In this document: piece after piece, positions 7,628-16,264 of the stretch
Layout of the letters: the number at the start of each line of letters is the position of its first letter
How positions within the stretch are numbered: the first letter of the stretch is position 1
NCBI GenBank assembly: GCA_019637335.1
Contig: JAHBVV010000034.1
Coordinates: 1-64,000, forward strand
DNA from: Candidatus Hydrogenedentota bacterium
GTDB taxonomy: Bacteria; Hydrogenedentota; Hydrogenedentia; Hydrogenedentales; JAEUWI01
DNA: 64,000 nucleotides
Reading direction: 5' to 3'
Position numbers and translations under genes: made by a program
Notes under the pieces: generated by a model
Seen by the model: the letters and a program-made list of their open reading frames with translations, nothing else
Databases searched by the model: none
What the model was told of the DNA's origin: nothing

Positions 7628-10600
7628 ATGCCACTGCGCGGCGGATCTAGCGACAAATTAGGAAATCGCTATGAAGGTTGGTGGACCGTATCATGCCTTC
7701 TTGGCATCCTGGCAAGCGAGGCGGAATCAATCCGCATAGAGGAGCCAGGTGAAGACTCAATAGAATTCGTTCTCGTAAAAAGAGGCAAGAAGGAGTATCA
7801 CCAGGCAAAGCGGAACACGCCATTGGGCTCATGGACAATTGCAGCGCTTGGATCGACTAAAGTCGGTGTGCTGAAGGCAATCAAGGAAAAGCTCTCAGGC
7901 AGCGACTCGAAATTCTTATTCGTGTCTGGAAGCGAATCTCGCGAGCTTAAGGAACTTACTGATCGTTCGAGAGACGCCGAATCGTACGAAGAATTCACGA
8001 CCAAATTCCTTCAAGCCAAAGCTCATTCTGAGAATTTCCAAAAGCTCCAGCGATTTTGGGATGACGTCGCTCCCGAAGTTGCATATGAACTGCTGCAACG
8101 GCTAACCCTGAGGACAATTGACGAGCGAGGTCTCGTCGAAAGCACAAGAAATCATAGTCGGGCACTGTTTCTTGAAAGACCCGAGACCGTTCTGGCTGAA
8201 CTTCGAAGTATTGTACTTGATTCCGTTCATCAAACATTGACCCGGGACGATCTGATCACCAGCTTGAGAGACTCTGGAATTCAGCTCCGCAGGATTCAAA
8301 ATCCGCAAGATGTTCCGAACGTTGTCCGTCAGGCAACAGACGCGTACTTGGAGAGTATCCGTCGTAAGTTGATCGGCGGAACACTGATCCCGCGAGAGGC
8401 GGTGGAATCCCTATGCCAGAAGGTGCTGGCCAGCACGGAGAGTATGGAGATCGCCATAGTTGGAAAGGCTGGTGGTGGGAAGACTGCGAGCCTTCTTCAT
8501 CTAGCGCAGGGGCTTGTGGATGGAGGAGTTTCGGTGCTGGCATTCCGATTGTACCCATTGGAGCCCGTTTACAATTCTAAACAGCTTGGCGAAAAAATTG
8601 GCTTGGAAGAATCCCCAGCGCTCATCGTCTCCAGCTTGTCGGCCACTGGACCGTCGGCGATCTTAATAGACCAACTTGACGCGCTTAGCATAGTTTCAGG
8701 TCGTGGAACGGAAGCGTTCTACGAAACGTTGGAACAAGTCTTAAGCGAAGTGCGTGGATTGAGAACGCCGCATCCGATACATGTCATTGTTGCTTGCAGA
8801 AGTTTCGACTGGAGTAATGACGCGCGATTCAGGAGCATGCTGCGAAATAACCACTTGAACTTTGAAGTGTCTGACTTCTCCATGGATGAGGTCGAGCATG
8901 TGCTCTCGGACCACAGTTTTGACGTCAGCGGTTTTCAAGAGAGGCAGACTAGACTCCTGTGTCTTCCACGCAATCTATACCTGTTCCTCGAGTCCCACAT
9001 TGGTTCGGAACGGGAATTTAAGTTTCTGACCGAGAAGGACCTTTTTGACCAATACTGGGACGAAAAGCGAGGAGCGATAAATTCGCGATTGACGTCACAT
9101 CGAGACAACTGGGATGTCGTGATCCAGAGTATTGTCGAAATCATGAGAGACTCCGAACAACTATTCTCACCGAAAGAAAAGCTTGATGCCCTTGACCAAG
9201 TCTACTTGGACGCAATGTGCTCGGAGAGCGTGTTGACTTTCGATGGCAAACGATATGGGTTTGGTCATGAGAGTTTTTATGACTACTGTTTCGCTCGCAA
9301 ATTTGTTGCCAATGGTCAGAGCCTCTGTGAAGTGCTGAAGGAGGGCAGCCAAGGGCTCTTTGTCCGGTCTATGGTGAGACAGGTCCTTATGTACATGCGT
9401 GATTACGATTCTCCGACCTACATTCAACAAGTTGATTCGCTACTGAGTGATAACCACATTCGGATTCACATAAAGGACTTGGTGCTGGGGCTTTTGGCTT
9501 CAGCGCCACAACCAAAACTTGAAGAGTGGAAGCTCTTCAATACTCGAATCGATAATCTCTTCAAATTGGCCTCGGAGAATTCGCAATATGGGACCCTGGA
9601 AGCGTTAGTTTGGCAGTATTTTTTCTTGTCACCATCGCTTTTCGGAATGGCGCATTCCGAAGGCGACTTGAAGCGGTGGTTAGCGTCAGTCGGCGACCAA
9701 TCCATTAATATTCTTATTCACTACTTCTACTACGAACAGCGGCATCACGCGGAAGTGATCGCGGAATTGCTGGAACCGTACGTCGGAGTAAGTCCCGTCT
9801 GGGATGATCGATTAAGAAGAGTCATGGAAGGCGCCTCGAGTGGAGACAGTAGACGGTCGTTCGACTTATTCTTGAAATTGCTTGAACTTGGGGTGCTTGA
9901 CTCAGCCCGCGATAGATGGATCGGCAACGGAACATTCTGGTCAATGTGCAGTTCATGGTCGGACAGCAGGCCAGACTGGTTAGCTGAATTGATCGCACGG
10001 TGGTTGGCAAGACGACTTCAGTTGTTTTTGGATTCCGGCAGGTCTACATGCCAGCCTGCTTGGAGGGGATTCCTGGAGAATGACAGTGATGTGAAACATA
10101 TACTCATGGAAGTGGCGCAGAAGGCTCCAGCGGAGTATGTGAAATATGTATTGCCAGTTGTGTTGCAGATCATTGAGGAAGCTGTGGTTAAAGGCAGAGA
10201 TGAGCTACCACGGGTCGACTACGTGGAGAGGATATATCATGTCAGCGAGTCCAGTATGACCCGAGGCATCCTGAGAGAATCGCTTTTTTCTGCACTTGAT
10301 TCATTGCGGGGGGAGCGGGGAACCATATTCCTGAATGCCGTACAAGACTTGCGGGGCAGGAACACATATTTTTCGAACCATCTCCTGCTGCGACTTTACA
10401 CCAGTAGCGCGAGCCAATTAGCGGAAGTTGCGGCGGAACTGCTCTGTAATGAGCCATGGCGTTTGTCCTGCGGATACGCAGACAGCGAGTATTGGGTAGC
10501 GGCGAGGCTGCTGGGGGAGATTCTTCCCCATCTTGCGGCGGATGATCGTGAAAGGCTTGAGCGAGTTGTACTGGATTTTGTGCCGAAATGGGAGCGCCAA

Positions 10601-12181
10601 AGAAAACACAATGGATACTTGCAGCATGGGCAGGCATGCTTTGAACTGCTGTCCGGTATACCTGAGAAGCTATTAAGCCCAACTGGGCGAAAGCGTTTGC
10701 AGGAGTTGGTCCGCAAGTTTGGATCACCAAGCGGTCCGCCCCAAAACACAAGCGCGAGCTTCGTAACGTCGCCCGTTCCCCACGATGCAAGTGGGAAGAT
10801 GAGTAACGACCAGTGGATTCGAGCGATCAAGAAGTACAACGATGAGAGTTCCGGTAGGTGGTTCCAGACCCCGGGTAAGGGCGGACCAGCTCAGTTGGCT
10901 GGCGAATTGGAGCTTTGCGTCAAGAGTGAGCCGGAGAGATTTGCAAAATTGGCCCTGGTGTTTCCAAGCGGGACAAATCCCGTGTTTTTTTCCCGTATTC
11001 TGCGTGGATTGAAAGTATGCGAAGGTTTCGACAAGGTAAAAACAGAGCTGTGCCGAAGGGTGATCTCCGAGTATAAAGTAGAATGTGGCACGGAACTTGT
11101 CGAAATCTTACCGAGTTTTCAAGGTCCAATTCCTGAAGATTTGTTGGATTTCCTGCGGTGGACGATTGCAAATCACCCGGATCCGGCGACCGAATTGTGG
11201 GACCAGGACAGCAATGGGGGTGGAAAGTACTACGGAGGCGACATATACGATTGTGGACTGAATACAACCCGAGGCGCGGCGGCAGGCGTCCTCCGCGAAC
11301 TAGTCCGAAAAGAGCCAAAGCTCATAGATACCTTGAGAGATACGTTGACGAGACTAATCGGCGATCCAAGTATTGCGGTGCGCTCATGCGCGGCGACCAC
11401 ACTTCAGGTTGTTTACTGGCACAACGAAGACCTGGCAGTAGAATTGTTCCAAGAACTGGTCAACACAGACGAGCGCCTACTCGGAACTCATTATGTTCAG
11501 GAATTCCTGCACTGGTCACTTCGACACCACATTGAGGATGTGCGCAATATTGTATTGCGGATGTTAGTCTCTGGCCACAGTGAGGTGAGACGAGGTGGTG
11601 GACGTCTCGCGGGACTAGCGGAACTATACCATGAGAGCGAGGCAAGTCTAGCGGCGTCAGCGATGGCGGGGGACACGGCATCCCGCTTAGGAATTGCCGA
11701 AATTGCCGCAAAAAACCTTGGTATTCAGGATTGCCGGTCTTTGTGCGAAGATAAACTTCTCGTGCTCTTCAATGACGAAAATGAGGACGTTCAAAAGTGT
11801 GTGGCTACTTGTTTTCGTTCCTTGGAAGGAAAACCCGTTGAAGAATTTGAGAGACTGATTGAAGGATTTTGTCGAAGTAAAGCGTTCGAGACAGATTCGA
11901 GCGAACTTATCGAGTTGCTTGTCCAATCTACCTATCGTGTGCCAGGTGTGCTGGCAAGCACTTGTGAGCGGTATCTGAAGTGGTTTGAAAAGCGTAGCGA
12001 AACTGGGGCCAGAGACCTTGCGTATGGAGTAAGCATGAAACTAGTGTCGCAATTGATCTTCCGGATATATCAGCAGCATAAAGGAGACGTATGGGGCACG
12101 AAAGCCCTAGATCTGATTGACCGCATGTGCCTTGTGGGGGTCTCAGAGGTTAGAGGCGGACTTTCCGAATTTGATCGGTGA
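7628..12181 (+). CDS. Avs-like STAND NTPase with N-terminal Cap4-type nuclease domain (putative anti-phage protein)
   Basis: The protein has 1517 residues. Residues about 1-230 resemble the Cap4/DUF4297 dsDNA nuclease fold: GNRYEGWW with E16, then IEEPGEDSIEF and EYHQAK (Q59, K61) as a PD-(D/E/Q)xK-like active site. Residues about 270-620 form a STAND-type NTPase with Walker A GKAGGGKT (279-286) and Walker B AILIDQLD (D348, D351). The segments VIVACRSFDW and FGHESFYDYCFARKF are typical of NACHT/STAND proteins. The remaining 850 or so residues are helical, HEAT/TPR-like, including IAVRSCAATTLQVVY, and would be the sensor. Avs proteins of this plan bind a phage protein, oligomerise and degrade DNA. 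GAGG lies 6 bp before the ATG. G+C is about one half against about two thirds around it, a sign of transfer. Confidence 0.82.
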   Translation: MPLRGGSSDKLGNRYEGWWTVSCLLGILASEAESIRIEEPGEDSIEFVLVKRGKKEYHQAKRNTPLGSWTIAALGSTKVGVLKAIKEKLSGSDSKFLFVSGSESRELKELTDRSRDAESYEEFTTKFLQAKAHSENFQKLQRFWDDVAPEVAYELLQRLTLRTIDERGLVESTRNHSRALFLERPETVLAELRSIVLDSVHQTLTRDDLITSLRDSGIQLRRIQNPQDVPNVVRQATDAYLESIRRKLIGGTLIPREAVESLCQKVLASTESMEIAIVGKAGGGKTASLLHLAQGLVDGGVSVLAFRLYPLEPVYNSKQLGEKIGLEESPALIVSSLSATGPSAILIDQLDALSIVSGRGTEAFYETLEQVLSEVRGLRTPHPIHVIVACRSFDWSNDARFRSMLRNNHLNFEVSDFSMDEVEHVLSDHSFDVSGFQERQTRLLCLPRNLYLFLESHIGSEREFKFLTEKDLFDQYWDEKRGAINSRLTSHRDNWDVVIQSIVEIMRDSEQLFSPKEKLDALDQVYLDAMCSESVLTFDGKRYGFGHESFYDYCFARKFVANGQSLCEVLKEGSQGLFVRSMVRQVLMYMRDYDSPTYIQQVDSLLSDNHIRIHIKDLVLGLLASAPQPKLEEWKLFNTRIDNLFKLASENSQYGTLEALVWQYFFLSPSLFGMAHSEGDLKRWLASVGDQSINILIHYFYYEQRHHAEVIAELLEPYVGVSPVWDDRLRRVMEGASSGDSRRSFDLFLKLLELGVLDSARDRWIGNGTFWSMCSSWSDSRPDWLAELIARWLARRLQLFLDSGRSTCQPAWRGFLENDSDVKHILMEVAQKAPAEYVKYVLPVVLQIIEEAVVKGRDELPRVDYVERIYHVSESSMTRGILRESLFSALDSLRGERGTIFLNAVQDLRGRNTYFSNHLLLRLYTSSASQLAEVAAELLCNEPWRLSCGYADSEYWVAARLLGEILPHLAADDRERLERVVLDFVPKWERQRKHNGYLQHGQACFELLSGIPEKLLSPTGRKRLQELVRKFGSPSGPPQNTSASFVTSPVPHDASGKMSNDQWIRAIKKYNDESSGRWFQTPGKGGPAQLAGELELCVKSEPERFAKLALVFPSGTNPVFFSRILRGLKVCEGFDKVKTELCRRVISEYKVECGTELVEILPSFQGPIPEDLLDFLRWTIANHPDPATELWDQDSNGGGKYYGGDIYDCGLNTTRGAAAGVLRELVRKEPKLIDTLRDTLTRLIGDPSIAVRSCAATTLQVVYWHNEDLAVELFQELVNTDERLLGTHYVQEFLHWSLRHHIEDVRNIVLRMLVSGHSEVRRGGGRLAGLAELYHESEASLAASAMAGDTASRLGIAEIAAKNLGIQDCRSLCEDKLLVLFNDENEDVQKCVATCFRSLEGKPVEEFERLIEGFCRSKAFETDSSELIELLVQSTYRVPGVLASTCERYLKWFEKRSETGARDLAYGVSMKLVSQLIFRIYQQHKGDVWGTKALDLIDRMCLVGVSEVRGGLSEFDR

Positions 12182-12379
12182 CTAGGTCTCGGTCTGTTGA
12201 CGGGACCGCCAGTTTTTGTTCTTTAATTGTTGGGCATTTTCCCTTGCCTACAAAGGTAAACCTCCACCCCGCCGTTTGGTCTCTCCCGGCTTCCCAAGGC
12301 TCCCGAAAAGGGGGTACAATAATCGGGCCAGGCCGCTGTAATGTCACCTTGCTCGAATGAGCCCACGGGAGATTCGGAA
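12182..12379. other. Gap between defence gene and mntA
   Basis: I see no gene, repeat or clear terminator here. It separates the low-G+C STAND gene from the host-like nucleotidyltransferase gene. Confidence 0.5.
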
Positions 12380-12685
12380 ATGAGCCAGCCCAGAATCGCC
12401 ATACCGCAGGAGGAGATCGAAGCCTTTTGCCGGAAATGGCGCGTGCGCGAGTTTTCTCTCTTCGGCTCCGTCCTTCGCGACGACTTTCGCGACGACAGCG
12501 ATGTGGATGTGCTGGTGGAATTCGACGCGGCCGCCCCGTGGAGCCTGTGGGACTGGCCGTACATGATCGACGAGTTGAAGGCTGTTTTTGGCCGCGAGGT
12601 GGACTTGGTGGAGAAGGACGCCCTTCGGAACGAGCAGCGCCGCAGGGCCATACTTTCGGAGCATCGGGTGCTTTATGCCGCTTAG
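12380..12685 (+). CDS. mntA: MntA-like minimal nucleotidyltransferase (antitoxin)
   Basis: The 101-residue protein is a minimal nucleotidyltransferase with the motif GSVLRDDFRDDSDVDVLVEF, in which the GSxxR and DxD residues are intact, and a later DLVE acidic segment. In MntA-HepT modules this enzyme adds AMP residues to the HepT toxin and neutralises it. The start at 12380 gives the usual short N-terminus. The stop overlaps the start of the hepT frame by 11 bp, the normal arrangement of the operon. Because the toxin frame is interrupted, this antitoxin may now be solitary. G+C is closer to the host than that of the upstream STAND gene. Confidence 0.88.
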   Translation: MSQPRIAIPQEEIEAFCRKWRVREFSLFGSVLRDDFRDDSDVDVLVEFDAAAPWSLWDWPYMIDELKAVFGREVDLVEKDALRNEQRRRAILSEHRVLYAA

Positions 12686-13025
12686 CGAACGGGATACGGC
12701 GCTCCTGGAGGACATGCTCGTCCACGCCTGATTGATAAGCGCGTTCGTCGAAGGGATTTCCGTTGATCAGTATCTGGCGGACAGGAAAACCCAGCTTGCC
12801 GTTGAACGGCTCATAGAGATCATCGGGGAGGCGGCCCGGGGAATGTCCAAGGCTTTTCGGGACAGCGAACCTGACATACCCTGGCGGGGCATAATCGGAC
12901 AGCGAAACGTGCTGGCGCACGAGTACGGCGAAGTAAAGCAGGAACGCATATGGAATGTCGCGCCGCGAGAAATTCCCATCCTGATAGGGCATCTTGAACG
13001 GCTGACGTCCGCGGATCCCGAATGA
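12675..13025 (+). pseudogene. hepT: HepT-like HEPN toxin interrupted by an in-frame TGA
   Basis: From ATG 12675 the frame reads MPLSERDTALLEDMLVHA, meets TGA at 12729-12731, then continues in the same frame with LISAFVEGISVDQYLADRK and the rest of a HepT (DUF86) protein. The RNase-type HEPN motif RNVLAHEY (RX4HXY) and the IGEAARG and IPWRGIIGQRN segments are intact. The stop falls where many HepT proteins have an arginine, so a CGA-to-TGA change is the simplest explanation. A TTG at 12732 could start a 97-residue product, but it lacks helix 1 and a well-placed ribosome site. Either the toxin is dead, or translation restarts, or the stop is read through. The frame and motifs are seen; the consequence is inferred. 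Confidence 0.8.
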
Positions 13026-13139: not shown

Positions 13140-13802
13140 GATGTAGCCACAAAGAGCACAGGGCAGCCTCTGGCCGCAACCAAAAAAATAATCACCACGA
13201 AGGGCACGAAGGGCACGAAGGGCACGAAGAGAAAGGGAGAAGGGCTTTAACCGCAGAGAACGCAGAGAACGCAGAGGATGGCTCTTGTACGCAGATGAAG
13301 TAGTTGGTTGAATGGGGGTGCGTTTTTGACCACGAATGGACACCAATGCACACGAATGCGCCTCGAGCGGCCACTGGCCGCGATCAGGATTTGTGACCAC
13401 GGATGACACGGATGACACGGATAGCAATTGGTTCCGGTCGTTGAGGCGTGCCGGCGGCTGCGTGCGACTTTCGACGCAGCCTGTTCGGATTGTTCAGCAT
13501 CGGAATTGTAGCGGGGTTGATCGGGTGGCGGGCTGCTTCTTCTCGTTTTGTTCGAGTTTCGCTTCAATCCGTGTCATCGGTGTAATCCGTGGTCAATAGA
13601 AGAATATCGGCCACGATATTCATGGGACGACCCGGAAATTCTCCTTGGAGTTTCCAATTCGTAAATGCTTTTACAACAGATTGTTATGGAGATTTTGCGC
13701 GCAAGAACTTGCAGAAAAAACAAGAAAATGACGGATGGTAGTACAAAGTGCACAAGGAAACGCTGCAATGTTCTTTGTGCTCTCTGTGAACTTTGTGGCT
13801 AA
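13140..13802. repeat. Gene-free region of nested inverted and 9-bp tandem repeats
   Basis: No gene is seen in 13026-13805. An outer inverted pair, TAGCCACAAAGAGCACAG (about 13142) and CTCTGTGAACTTTGTGGCTA (about 13781-13800), encloses several 9-bp tandem runs. These are CACGAAGGG (13195-13230), CGCAGAGAA (13250-13275) and GACACGGAT (13400-13423). The last has an inverted partner, ATCCGTGTCATCGGTGTAAT, near 13568, which is followed by CCGTGGTC. This class of repeat occurs across unrelated bacteria and often yields false predicted proteins rich in LRALRALRG. Confidence 0.8.
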
Positions 13803-13805
13803 AAC

Positions 13806-14021
13806 CTATTCTTCCAGCGGCAGGGCGACGTCCTCGAAGTTGTCCATCATGCGATCGCCGCGCATGCGCTCGAGGGCCATGTGGGCGTCGCCGGCGCTTA
13901 GGGTCACCTGGTCTTTGCTGCAATAGCGCCGCCAGGTGATGTTGCCGTTTTCCTTTTCCTTGTTGCCGATGATCCAGATACTCGGCACCTTGTGGGTGAT
14001 GGCGTTGCGGATTGTTTTGAG
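13806..14021 (-). pseudogene. Divergent duplicate of the thrS 3' end
   Basis: On the minus strand this encodes about 70 codons matching the ThrRS anticodon-binding domain: IRNAITHKVPSIWIIGNKEK, ENGNITWRRYCSKDQ, and a family-like ending MDNFEDVALPLEE with a stop. It has no start codon of its own in frame with the domain. A 53-bp segment at 13927-13979 is identical to 14384-14436 inside thrS, while flanking bases have diverged. It may preserve the original 3' end of thrS. Confidence 0.75.
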
Positions 14022-14052
14022 TTCTGAGACCGCCAGCACTGCAGTTGTAGAA

Positions 14053-16089
14053 CTACCTAAGATACATTTTCCCTTTACAAACGGAACATTCTAGTTCTTT
14101 GCAGTTCATGTATTCGGCCAAGTCCAAGGCGTAAGTGATGTTATCGGCCTGAGAATCTGGAGCAACATTGGCGTTGTATTCATTAAGGTCGTGCGCACCA
14201 TCCACATCATCGGGAGAGCTTTGAGATCTTGGAAAATACAACGTTCTCAAGCCACAATCGGGATTTGAACATACGTAAAGTTTGGTCATCCTGAAATTGT
14301 CCATTGTCCGTTCTCCTCGAAGTTGTTCCATCAGCTTTTTTGCATTTTCGATGCTCATAGTCTCTTGGTCTTTGCTGCTATACCGCCGCCAGGTGATGTT
14401 GCCGTTTTCCTTTTCCTTGTTGCCGATGATCCAGATGTTCGGGATCTTGTGGGTGATGGCGTTGCGGATTTTTTTGTTGAAGCTCTCGTTGCTCTCGTCG
14501 ATCTCGGCGCGGAAGAGGCTTTCGCGGAGTTCGCCGGCGATCTGGTGGGCGTAGCCGGCGACGTCGTCGTTGACGGGGATGAGCTTGACCTGCACGGGGG
14601 CCATCCAGGTGGGGAAGGCGCCGCCGTAGAGCTCGATGAGGAAGCTGATCATGCGCTCGTGGGTGCTGAGGGGCGCGCGGTGGATGATGAACGGGGTCTT
14701 GTGCGATCCGTCGGAGTCCACGTATTCGAGGTTGAAGCGTTCCGCCACCACGAAGTCGAGCTGGCAGGTGGAGACGGTCTCTTCGCGGCCGAGGAGGTTC
14801 TTTACCTGGATGTCGATCTTGGGGCCGTAGAAGGCGGCTTCGCCTTTCTCCTCCTCAAACTCCACGCCGAGATTGTGCAGCACCTCGCGCACGACGGCCT
14901 CGCTCTGGAGCCATTCCTCGGTCTTGCCGGCGAACTTGTCCGACGCGGGGTCGTGGAGGCTCAGGCGCACGCGGAAGTTGCCCATGCGCAGGTGGCCGTA
15001 GTAGTAGCTGTACATGTCCATGACGGCGCGGAATTCCTGCTCCACCTGCTCGGGGGTGCAGTAGATGTGGGCGTCGTTCATGCACATGGCGCGGACGCGG
15101 AGCAGGCCCGCGAGGGAGCCGTGCTTCTCGTAGCGGTAGGTGTTGCCGTATTCCGCCAGGCGGAGCGGGAGGTCGCGGTAGGAGTGGGGCCGCGCCGCGT
15201 AGATCTTGTGGTGGTGCGGGCAGTTCATCGGGCGGAGGTAATATTCGTCGTGATCGTCCACCACCATGGCGGGGTACATGGAGTCGGCGTAGTAGGGGAG
15301 GTGCCCCGAGCGGTGGTAGAGGTCGCCGCGGGTGATGGCGGGGGTGCTCACGCGCTGGTAGCCCGCGCGGAACTCGATCTCGCGGGCCCACTGCTCCAGT
15401 TCGTCCCGCACCACGGCGCCATTCGGCATCCACATCGGCAGGCCCACGCCCACCTCCTCGTCCATGAAGAAGAGGTCGAGTTCCTGGCCCAGTTTGCGGT
15501 GGTCCCGCTCCATGGCGAGCTTGCGCCGCTCGATGTAGCCGTTCAATTCGGCCTTTGACTCAAACGCCAGCCCGTAGATGCGGGTGAGCATCGGCTTCTT
15601 CTCGTCGCCGCGCCAGTAGCTGCCGGAGATGCGGTCCAGCTTGAAGCAGGCCTTCGGCACCTCGCCGGTGTGCGCCAGGTGCGGCCCCTCGCACATGTCG
15701 ATAAAGGGGCCATTCACATAAAAGCCGAGGCCCTCGGGGCCCGCTTTCCCGGTTTCCACCAGTTCCCGCGCGTATTCGATCTTGTAGGTCTGGTCCGTCG
15801 CCGCGAGCAGTTCCCGCGCCTCTTCCAGCGACCTGTAGGACTGCTCGAAGGGCTGTTTTTCCTTGATGATGCGGCGCATGGCGTTCTCGATCTGTTCCAG
15901 GTCGCGCTCGCCGATGGGTTCGCCGCCGAAGTCGAAGTCGTAGTAGAACCCGAACTCCACGGGCGGGCCGAAGGCCATCTTGGCCTGGGGGCGGATTTCG
16001 AGCACGGCCTGGGCCATGATGTGGGCCAGCGAATGGCGCACTTTATAGATAAAAGACTGCTTCGGGTCGTCGTGGGGCTGGCTGCACAT
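14053..16089 (-). CDS. thrS: Threonyl-tRNA synthetase without TGS domain and with an unusual C-terminal tail
   Basis: This class II synthetase charges tRNA-Thr. It has the SAD editing-like domain (RHSLAHIMAQAV with conserved His), the catalytic core (MNCPHHHKIY zinc ligand motif, TYRYEKHGSLAGLLRVR, PLSTHERMISFLIELY) and the anticodon domain (ITHKIPNIWIIGNKEKENG). The ATG at 16089 gives MCSQPHDDPKQSF and no TGS domain; 16131 is an upstream alternative. After MDNF, where ThrRS normally ends, 78 residues are added. They start at an internal ATG at 14289 (MTKLYVCSNPDCGLRTLYFP) and carry five Cys in a CX4C...CX4CX2C zinc-ribbon-like pattern. The tail DNA is clearly lower in G+C than the core, and a copy of the normal 3' end lies just downstream. 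The tail therefore looks acquired. Core function should be intact. Confidence 0.93.
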   Translation of the reverse strand: MCSQPHDDPKQSFIYKVRHSLAHIMAQAVLEIRPQAKMAFGPPVEFGFYYDFDFGGEPIGERDLEQIENAMRRIIKEKQPFEQSYRSLEEARELLAATDQTYKIEYARELVETGKAGPEGLGFYVNGPFIDMCEGPHLAHTGEVPKACFKLDRISGSYWRGDEKKPMLTRIYGLAFESKAELNGYIERRKLAMERDHRKLGQELDLFFMDEEVGVGLPMWMPNGAVVRDELEQWAREIEFRAGYQRVSTPAITRGDLYHRSGHLPYYADSMYPAMVVDDHDEYYLRPMNCPHHHKIYAARPHSYRDLPLRLAEYGNTYRYEKHGSLAGLLRVRAMCMNDAHIYCTPEQVEQEFRAVMDMYSYYYGHLRMGNFRVRLSLHDPASDKFAGKTEEWLQSEAVVREVLHNLGVEFEEEKGEAAFYGPKIDIQVKNLLGREETVSTCQLDFVVAERFNLEYVDSDGSHKTPFIIHRAPLSTHERMISFLIELYGGAFPTWMAPVQVKLIPVNDDVAGYAHQIAGELRESLFRAEIDESNESFNKKIRNAITHKIPNIWIIGNKEKENGNITWRRYSSKDQETMSIENAKKLMEQLRGERTMDNFRMTKLYVCSNPDCGLRTLYFPRSQSSPDDVDGAHDLNEYNANVAPDSQADNITYALDLAEYMNCKELECSVCKGKMYLR

Positions 16090-16264
16090 GGTTCGGGGGG
16101 TCCTGTAAAAGTCGAAAAGGCGCCCGGCCACGTGAACACGGCCGGGCCTTAAAAGGGCGTCTGGAAAGCGCGTAGAATAGCAAGATCGGCGCTGTTAAGT
16201 CCATTGGCCATGCGCATTTTGCCACCTGACATGCGGAACGCTCTGCGTCAGTGGCGGCGGCAGA

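Follow-up and report, generated by a model that had tools for sequence, protein, structure and literature searches.

Foreign DNA carrying an orphan cysteine tail has probably replaced the 3' end of thrS in a Hydrogenedentota bacterium

How can the gene of an essential tRNA synthetase have its end recently exchanged for foreign DNA and yet read as one gene? This question is raised by a locus in a Candidatus Hydrogenedentota bacterium, in a stretch of 64,000 nucleotides (contig JAHBVV010000034.1, positions 1 to 64,000) that we analyzed as a whole and refer to as the window. In a preliminary description of this DNA, the threonyl-tRNA synthetase (ThrRS) gene thrS was seen to run on into a foreign-looking tail, with a second ThrRS C-terminus downstream, and it was proposed that an insertion or recombination event had fused a small zinc-ribbon gene to thrS and displaced the native end. 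We conclude that foreign DNA with an orphan tail did take the place of the thrS 3' end, probably recently, and that the case is a single one. The locus is a natural test of tolerance, and what is at issue is whether a ThrRS anticodon domain can work when its last helix is swapped and a further domain is attached.

The thrS reading frame and its duplicated 3' end

The open reading frame at 16131..14053 is the sole full-length thrS that we found in the genome. Its product scores above the cut-offs of the Pfam families PF00587, PF03129 and PF07973, matches the NCBIfam model TIGR00418 over residues 32-601 (625 bits, against a cut-off of 384), and matches the solved ThrRS proteins 1nyq and 1qf6 among PDB sequences; by Pfam and NCBIfam, residues 32-602 make up a complete ThrRS. 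The domains of a bacterial ThrRS–catalytic core, second additional domain and anticodon-binding domain–are all found in it. The frame continues, as first described, into a tail of 78 codons (14289-14056) of which the first is ATG and five encode cysteine. The G+C content of the tail is 0.43, compared to 0.64 in thrS upstream of the junction. The features of the locus, all on the minus strand, are as follows.

14053..16131 (-), thrS open reading frame of 692 codons, consisting of the native core, a replacement 3' end and the 78-residue tail
14366..14476 (-), block A of the duplicated thrS stretch, identical to block B at 104 of 111 bases
14384..14436 (-), copy A of a 53-bp exact repeat, the putative crossover region
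14290..14365 (-), replacement thrS 3' end of foreign composition, differing from the native copy at 34 of 76 bases
14313..14317 (-), AGGAG, resembling a Shine-Dalgarno sequence
14053..14289 (-), orphan cysteine tail of 78 residues plus stop codon, C-x4-C ... C-x4-C-x2-C
14020..14052 (-), spacer of 33 bp from the tail stop codon to the displaced copy, with an A-rich junction to thrS-like sequence
13806..14019 (-), displaced native thrS 3' end (block B and the native end to its stop codon), with no known start of its own
13927..13979 (-), copy B of the 53-bp exact repeat

The second ThrRS C-terminus, with its 53 identical bases, is located where the preliminary description put it, 33 bp past the stop codon of the tail. 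The two thrS ends align without gaps (13836-14019 against 14293-14476) at a constant spacing of 457 bp, which counts in favor of insertion, and they have exact runs of 53, 25 and 13 bp in common. When we shuffled the 41 differences over the 187 aligned sites, a run of at least 53 bp was seen in 0 of 20,000 shuffles. The displaced end contains no stop codon or frameshift, so the insertion event looks recent.

The downstream copy is the native end

To establish which of the two ends is native, we compared the thrS ends of relatives, as the preliminary description had proposed. Among 27 readable relative genes (L003-L029), 26 stop 2-12 residues past the motif (M/P)DNF, mostly with an end of the form '(x)DVxLPL', and the remaining one is truncated at a contig edge. 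Exactly such an end (DNFEDVALPLEE) is found in the downstream copy, whereas the fused copy runs from MDNF into the tail, and therefore the downstream copy is the native thrS end. In the congener G001 thrS is uninterrupted, and positions 13814-14012 and 14366-16220 of the window align to one continuous gene there; the proposal that an insertion or recombination displaced the native end thus holds. The flank beyond the displaced end also has a counterpart in the congener, in the following feature.

12368..12516 (+), stretch in the MNT gene that is also found downstream of thrS in G001, at 89% identity

Because this fragment follows thrS in both genomes, the flank past the displaced end belongs to the native sequence, and it is the 457 bp that were added. 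Its retention also rules out a rearrangement on the 11-kb scale, which we had considered.

The tail, which would be an ancient feature if all relatives had it, was found in only 1 of 68 genomes of the phylum, the source genome, and in 0 of the 67 others. Similarly, although 51 of the 68 genomes searched have some match to the thrS 3' end, two strong copies occur in the source genome only; two other genomes have two matches, with E-values above 0.004. The structure of the locus, the polarity of the change, the native state and the absence of the insert from the relatives compared are what the sequences show. Among the relatives, thrS of L028 (G036:C47:23869-25712) lies in two adjoining pieces with separate open frames of 445 and 197 amino acids, so it appears to be split by a frameshift or an assembly error.

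The insert brought a thrS 3' end of its own

The differences between the fused and displaced copies are distributed very unevenly: there are 7 in the 111 sites left of ~14365 and 34 in the 76 sites right of it, with a single sharp change-point, best placed at 14365 (Fisher P = 4.7 x 10−10, uncorrected for choosing the point). Right of this point, the displaced copy differs from G001 at 15 of 76 sites and the fused copy at 33 of 76. Over the last 30 codons to 14290, the GC content at third codon positions (GC3) is 0.50 in the fused copy, compared to 0.90 in the native end. Nevertheless the replacement is recognizable as a ThrRS end, matching the displaced copy at 15 of 29 residues and G001, its best match among relatives, at just as many. 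The differences between the fused and native ends fall 9, 8 and 18 times at codon positions 1, 2 and 3, and the frame and motif are kept. Since the replacement still reads as a ThrRS end and its differences favor codon position 3, the foreign DNA must have come with a thrS 3' end of its own. Judging from these alignments, the last ~25 codons of thrS are replaced by a homologous, low-GC3 version. The preliminary description was thus right that the tail is foreign and was added to thrS, but the tail was not joined onto the native end, and the foreign stretch starts earlier than the tail, near 14365. The differences between the copies are not restricted to the adenines of either copy, which rules out diversity-generating hypermutation, a candidate that we had considered.

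In the left-hand blocks there are, left of the 53-bp run, four differences between A and B within 9 bp, and at three of these sites the displaced copy has the G001 base. The left arms thus resemble two different alleles, which is what one expects of a single crossover. The displaced copy also has a serine at the KxPN site that is absent from the 21 relatives compared. These sites suggest that the displaced copy received its left arm together with the insert, an outcome expected if a circle or tandem was taken in by a single crossover. The displaced left arm is little diverged and the fused right arm very diverged, so the donor piece would itself be a mosaic. This counts against a single crossover, and so does the distance between left blocks A and B (7/111), which is not far below their distances to G001 (14/111 and 13/111).

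The alignable ThrRS core, by comparison with solved structures, reaches ~residue 595-606, and the foreign part starts near residue 589, so ThrRS should tolerate the swapped end. We take the E. coli anticodon contacts Glu600 and Arg609 to correspond to GNKE and WRRY here, both of them upstream of the change. The enzyme would then stay functional, only its last helix being swapped, beyond the aligned core of the anticodon domain.

The cysteine tail and a possible second start

The cysteines of the tail are laid out as C-x4-C, 50 residues, and C-x4-C-x2-C. In its first CysX4Cys motif ('YVCSNPDCG') and a second, CysX2Cys knuckle the tail resembles Ogr/Delta-like and other small zinc-ribbon proteins, but it differs from the Ogr/Delta-like zinc ribbons in having 55 residues between the knuckles, HMM matches below threshold and no confident fold. 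No Pfam family matched it above the cut-off, the best being Ogr_Delta (16.2 bits, cut-off 26.3) and DUF7559 (15.9 bits, cut-off 27). Searches of NCBIfam, PADLOC and PDB sequences gave no match, and the best E-value among PHROGs was 1.5. Single-sequence AlphaFold runs, on the tail alone and on the anticodon domain joined to it, gave uninformative models with pLDDT values of 40.8 (tail) and 37.1 (second run). The cysteine spacing and the sub-threshold matches therefore suggest a zinc ribbon, and we do not consider the earlier assignment to be established. The reading frame itself is unlikely to be open by chance, because only 152 of 20,000 mononucleotide shuffles kept all 78 codons open.

The preliminary description recommended a search with the 78 residues alone. 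This search returned an orphan but no donor: within its own genome the tail matched only itself, and it had no relative in the collections that we searched (order and phylum genomes, viral contigs, phages and plasmids), to which this absence is limited. The sole match among genome contigs (L044) is spurious, being a match to an acidic stretch and antisense to a long open reading frame that looks to us TldD-like. In the literature on ThrRS extensions and zinc ribbons, such a ThrRS tail is undescribed among the matches listed, as far as the portions available to us go.

The replacement end contains an AGGAG motif 8 nt before an in-frame ATG (14304-14302, codon 610), at which a protein beginning MDNFRMTKLYVC... 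could start. Among 521 sampled long ATG-started reading frames of this genome, AGGAG peaks 5-9 nt before the ATG, with 33 cases at these five distances compared to 0-1 at those farther away; the motif is absent from the native thrS end. A free protein of 83 residues is therefore possible, and the tail could also be started in this way from the internal AGGAG-ATG. The tail may be produced fused to ThrRS and perhaps, in addition, as a free, putatively metal-binding protein. A scan for promoters and terminators turned up nothing promoter-like, and its one terminator-like site does not stand above shuffles. Should the tail be expressed, it would be a ThrRS extension newly gained in this lineage and seen near its origin, with the old end still adjacent.

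How the foreign DNA may have entered thrS

We think it fairly likely that foreign DNA with its own thrS 3' end and a cysteine-rich frame entered thrS by a single crossover in the region ~14384-14436. The incoming DNA would have been circular or a tandem, and the exchange at the core either site-specific or of the RecA type on a small circle. The present order is native thrS, core, foreign thrS end and tail, 33 bp, diverged left arm, core, native end. Elements that integrate into the 3' ends of genes supply a replacement end, and two features of such elements are found here: direct repeats of the thrS end flank the insert, and thrS is completed in frame by the homologous end that the insert carries. 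The insert is probably a remnant of a mobile element that lands in gene 3' ends and restores them. Other observations count against this. The six frames of the 457-bp insert contain no integrase, and 457 bp is very small for a circle. Genome-wide there are only two PF00589 proteins, which look like XerC and XerD by their size and sequence, and neither is near thrS; three PF00239 proteins are all on contig C7, again none of them near thrS. We found no donor or related element among viral contigs, phages, plasmids or genome contigs, and the viral contigs contained 0 occurrences of the core DNA pattern and 0 relatives of the thrS 3' end.

The event is of a known kind, in an unusually small and bare form. 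The sections available to us describe e14 and phage 21 as using the icd gene (PMC12803456) and SGI1 as using the trmE 3' end (PMC8409611). As in those systems, the 3' end of a gene is directly repeated on both sides of the insert and the upstream gene is completed by the element's version, but here the insert is 457 bp long, lacks an integrase and any other gene of an element, and extends the product by 78 residues instead of giving it a matching end. Our literature searches found no paper on thrS as an attachment site, nor on ThrRS in Hydrogenedentes.

Three other explanations have to be weighed against the single crossover. One is homology-facilitated illegitimate recombination, by which small foreign DNA enters during transformation through homology on one side (PMC3240628, in the part available to us). 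Linear DNA from an unsampled lower-GC relative with a naturally tailed ThrRS would have undergone homologous exchange in the core and end-joining at the A-rich site near 14020. Small foreign DNA and one-sided homology fit this process, the order does include thrS genes of lower GC content (GC3 0.34-0.52 in L009, L021, L022 and L024), and the A-rich similarity at the 14019/14020 junction recalls the micro-homology of 3-10 bp described for illegitimate ends in the accessible part of the same paper. However, the process is there said usually to pair an insertion with a deletion of similar size, and here the insert is flanked by a duplication. None of the 26 fully readable relative genes is tailed, the twenty-seventh being cut, the clustered allele differences in the left arm are unexpected if both arms derive from the recipient, and no Ku was found in the genome. 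We consider this route rather unlikely.

If the thrS 3' end was duplicated locally in tandem in this lineage, and the upstream copy then diverged and gained a tail from junk, the core sequence that both copies have in common and that differs from G001 would be accounted for. Such a duplication would leave unexplained why divergence ends sharply at 14365, why the native end is much closer to its congener (15/76) than to the fused right part (34/76), why the fused part has a foreign GC3 of 0.50, and why the DNA after the tail is not duplicated past the native stop codon; we regard it as hardly credible. An assembly chimera, in which two molecules were joined at a common 53-bp stretch, is improbable to a lesser degree. 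An exact repeat of this length can confuse short-read assembly, but the path core-tail-core requires a real molecule with both junctions, the frame is kept across the junction, the replacement makes sense as a ThrRS end, with 15 identical residues in 29, and the genome is assembled in 55 contigs, of which C1 alone is 973 kb.

Other gene-end copies in the genome

We scanned the genome for C-terminal peptides that recur downstream, outside other open reading frames. The scan covered 2,470,178 of 7,157,908 bases (~35%) and 1,545 open reading frames of at least 150 amino acids, and it returned 26 rows, most of which were by eye intergenic repeats or paralogs. Two presumably Rnk/GreA-like genes that lie in tandem on C7, spaced at 457 bp like the thrS ends, proved on inspection to be ordinary paralogs. 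Three cases involve the ends of other genes.

G000 C2:260237-263944 (-), metH (by Pfam), with its copy at 256865-256957 (L109/L110)
G000 C3:154555-154740, 158029-158163 and 159917-160013, the carboxyltransferase-like case (L125)
G000 C8:90585-90688 and 94128-94231, the DUF1501-like case (L160, approximate)

The 3' end of metH recurs ~3.4 kb downstream over 93 bp (89% identity, including a 33-bp exact run that ends at the stop codon), and this copy adjoins a Y1-type transposase gene. A DUF4034-like gene that lies between the metH copies also follows metH in G001, so the metH case differs from that of thrS. In the second case, the 3' end of a gene that we take from its sequence to be carboxyltransferase-like recurs ~3.5 kb downstream as 135 bp at 97% identity. 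In addition, inserted DNA of ~5.2 kb is flanked there by a 97-bp stretch that covers the junction of this gene with a convergent LRR-type gene. In the third, the last ~90 bp of a presumably DUF1501-like gene, together with ~10 bp past its stop codon, recur 3.5 kb downstream as 104 bp at 93% identity.

When we scanned for repeats in general, we obtained 44 low-copy direct-repeat pairs, from which the DUF1501-like case is missing, probably lost to the copy-number filter. Seven of the pairs join a 3' gene end to an intergenic site and four a 5' end, so there is no clear excess of 3' ends. We do not count the copies at the metH, carboxyltransferase-like and DUF1501-like genes as support for our reading of thrS. 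They do raise the question of what repeatedly brings DNA into gene ends here, given that the two PF00589 proteins of the genome, its only ones, look like XerC and XerD. One could imagine an undescribed class of cassette-sized, recombinase-less elements that target the 3' ends of genes, bring a replacement end containing a ribosome-binding site, and deliver a small metal-binding protein both as an extension of an essential enzyme and free, with the three other gene-end duplications as traces of the same activity, but we consider this very doubtful.

Neighborhood of thrS

The intergenic region between thrS and the MNT/HepT pair (13180-13600 in the window) contains short repeats of the type 'ACCACGAAGGGCACGAAG'. 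The HepT-like frame beside the MNT gene (12675-13025) is interrupted by an in-frame TGA 18 codons in, which makes the HepT partner of MNT look broken. Next to this pair, positions 7628-12181 encode a protein of 1517 residues with weak matches to STAND NTPase and HEAT models and a PADLOC match to PDC-M54A (E = 8.6 x 10−23), which makes it a possible candidate defense gene.
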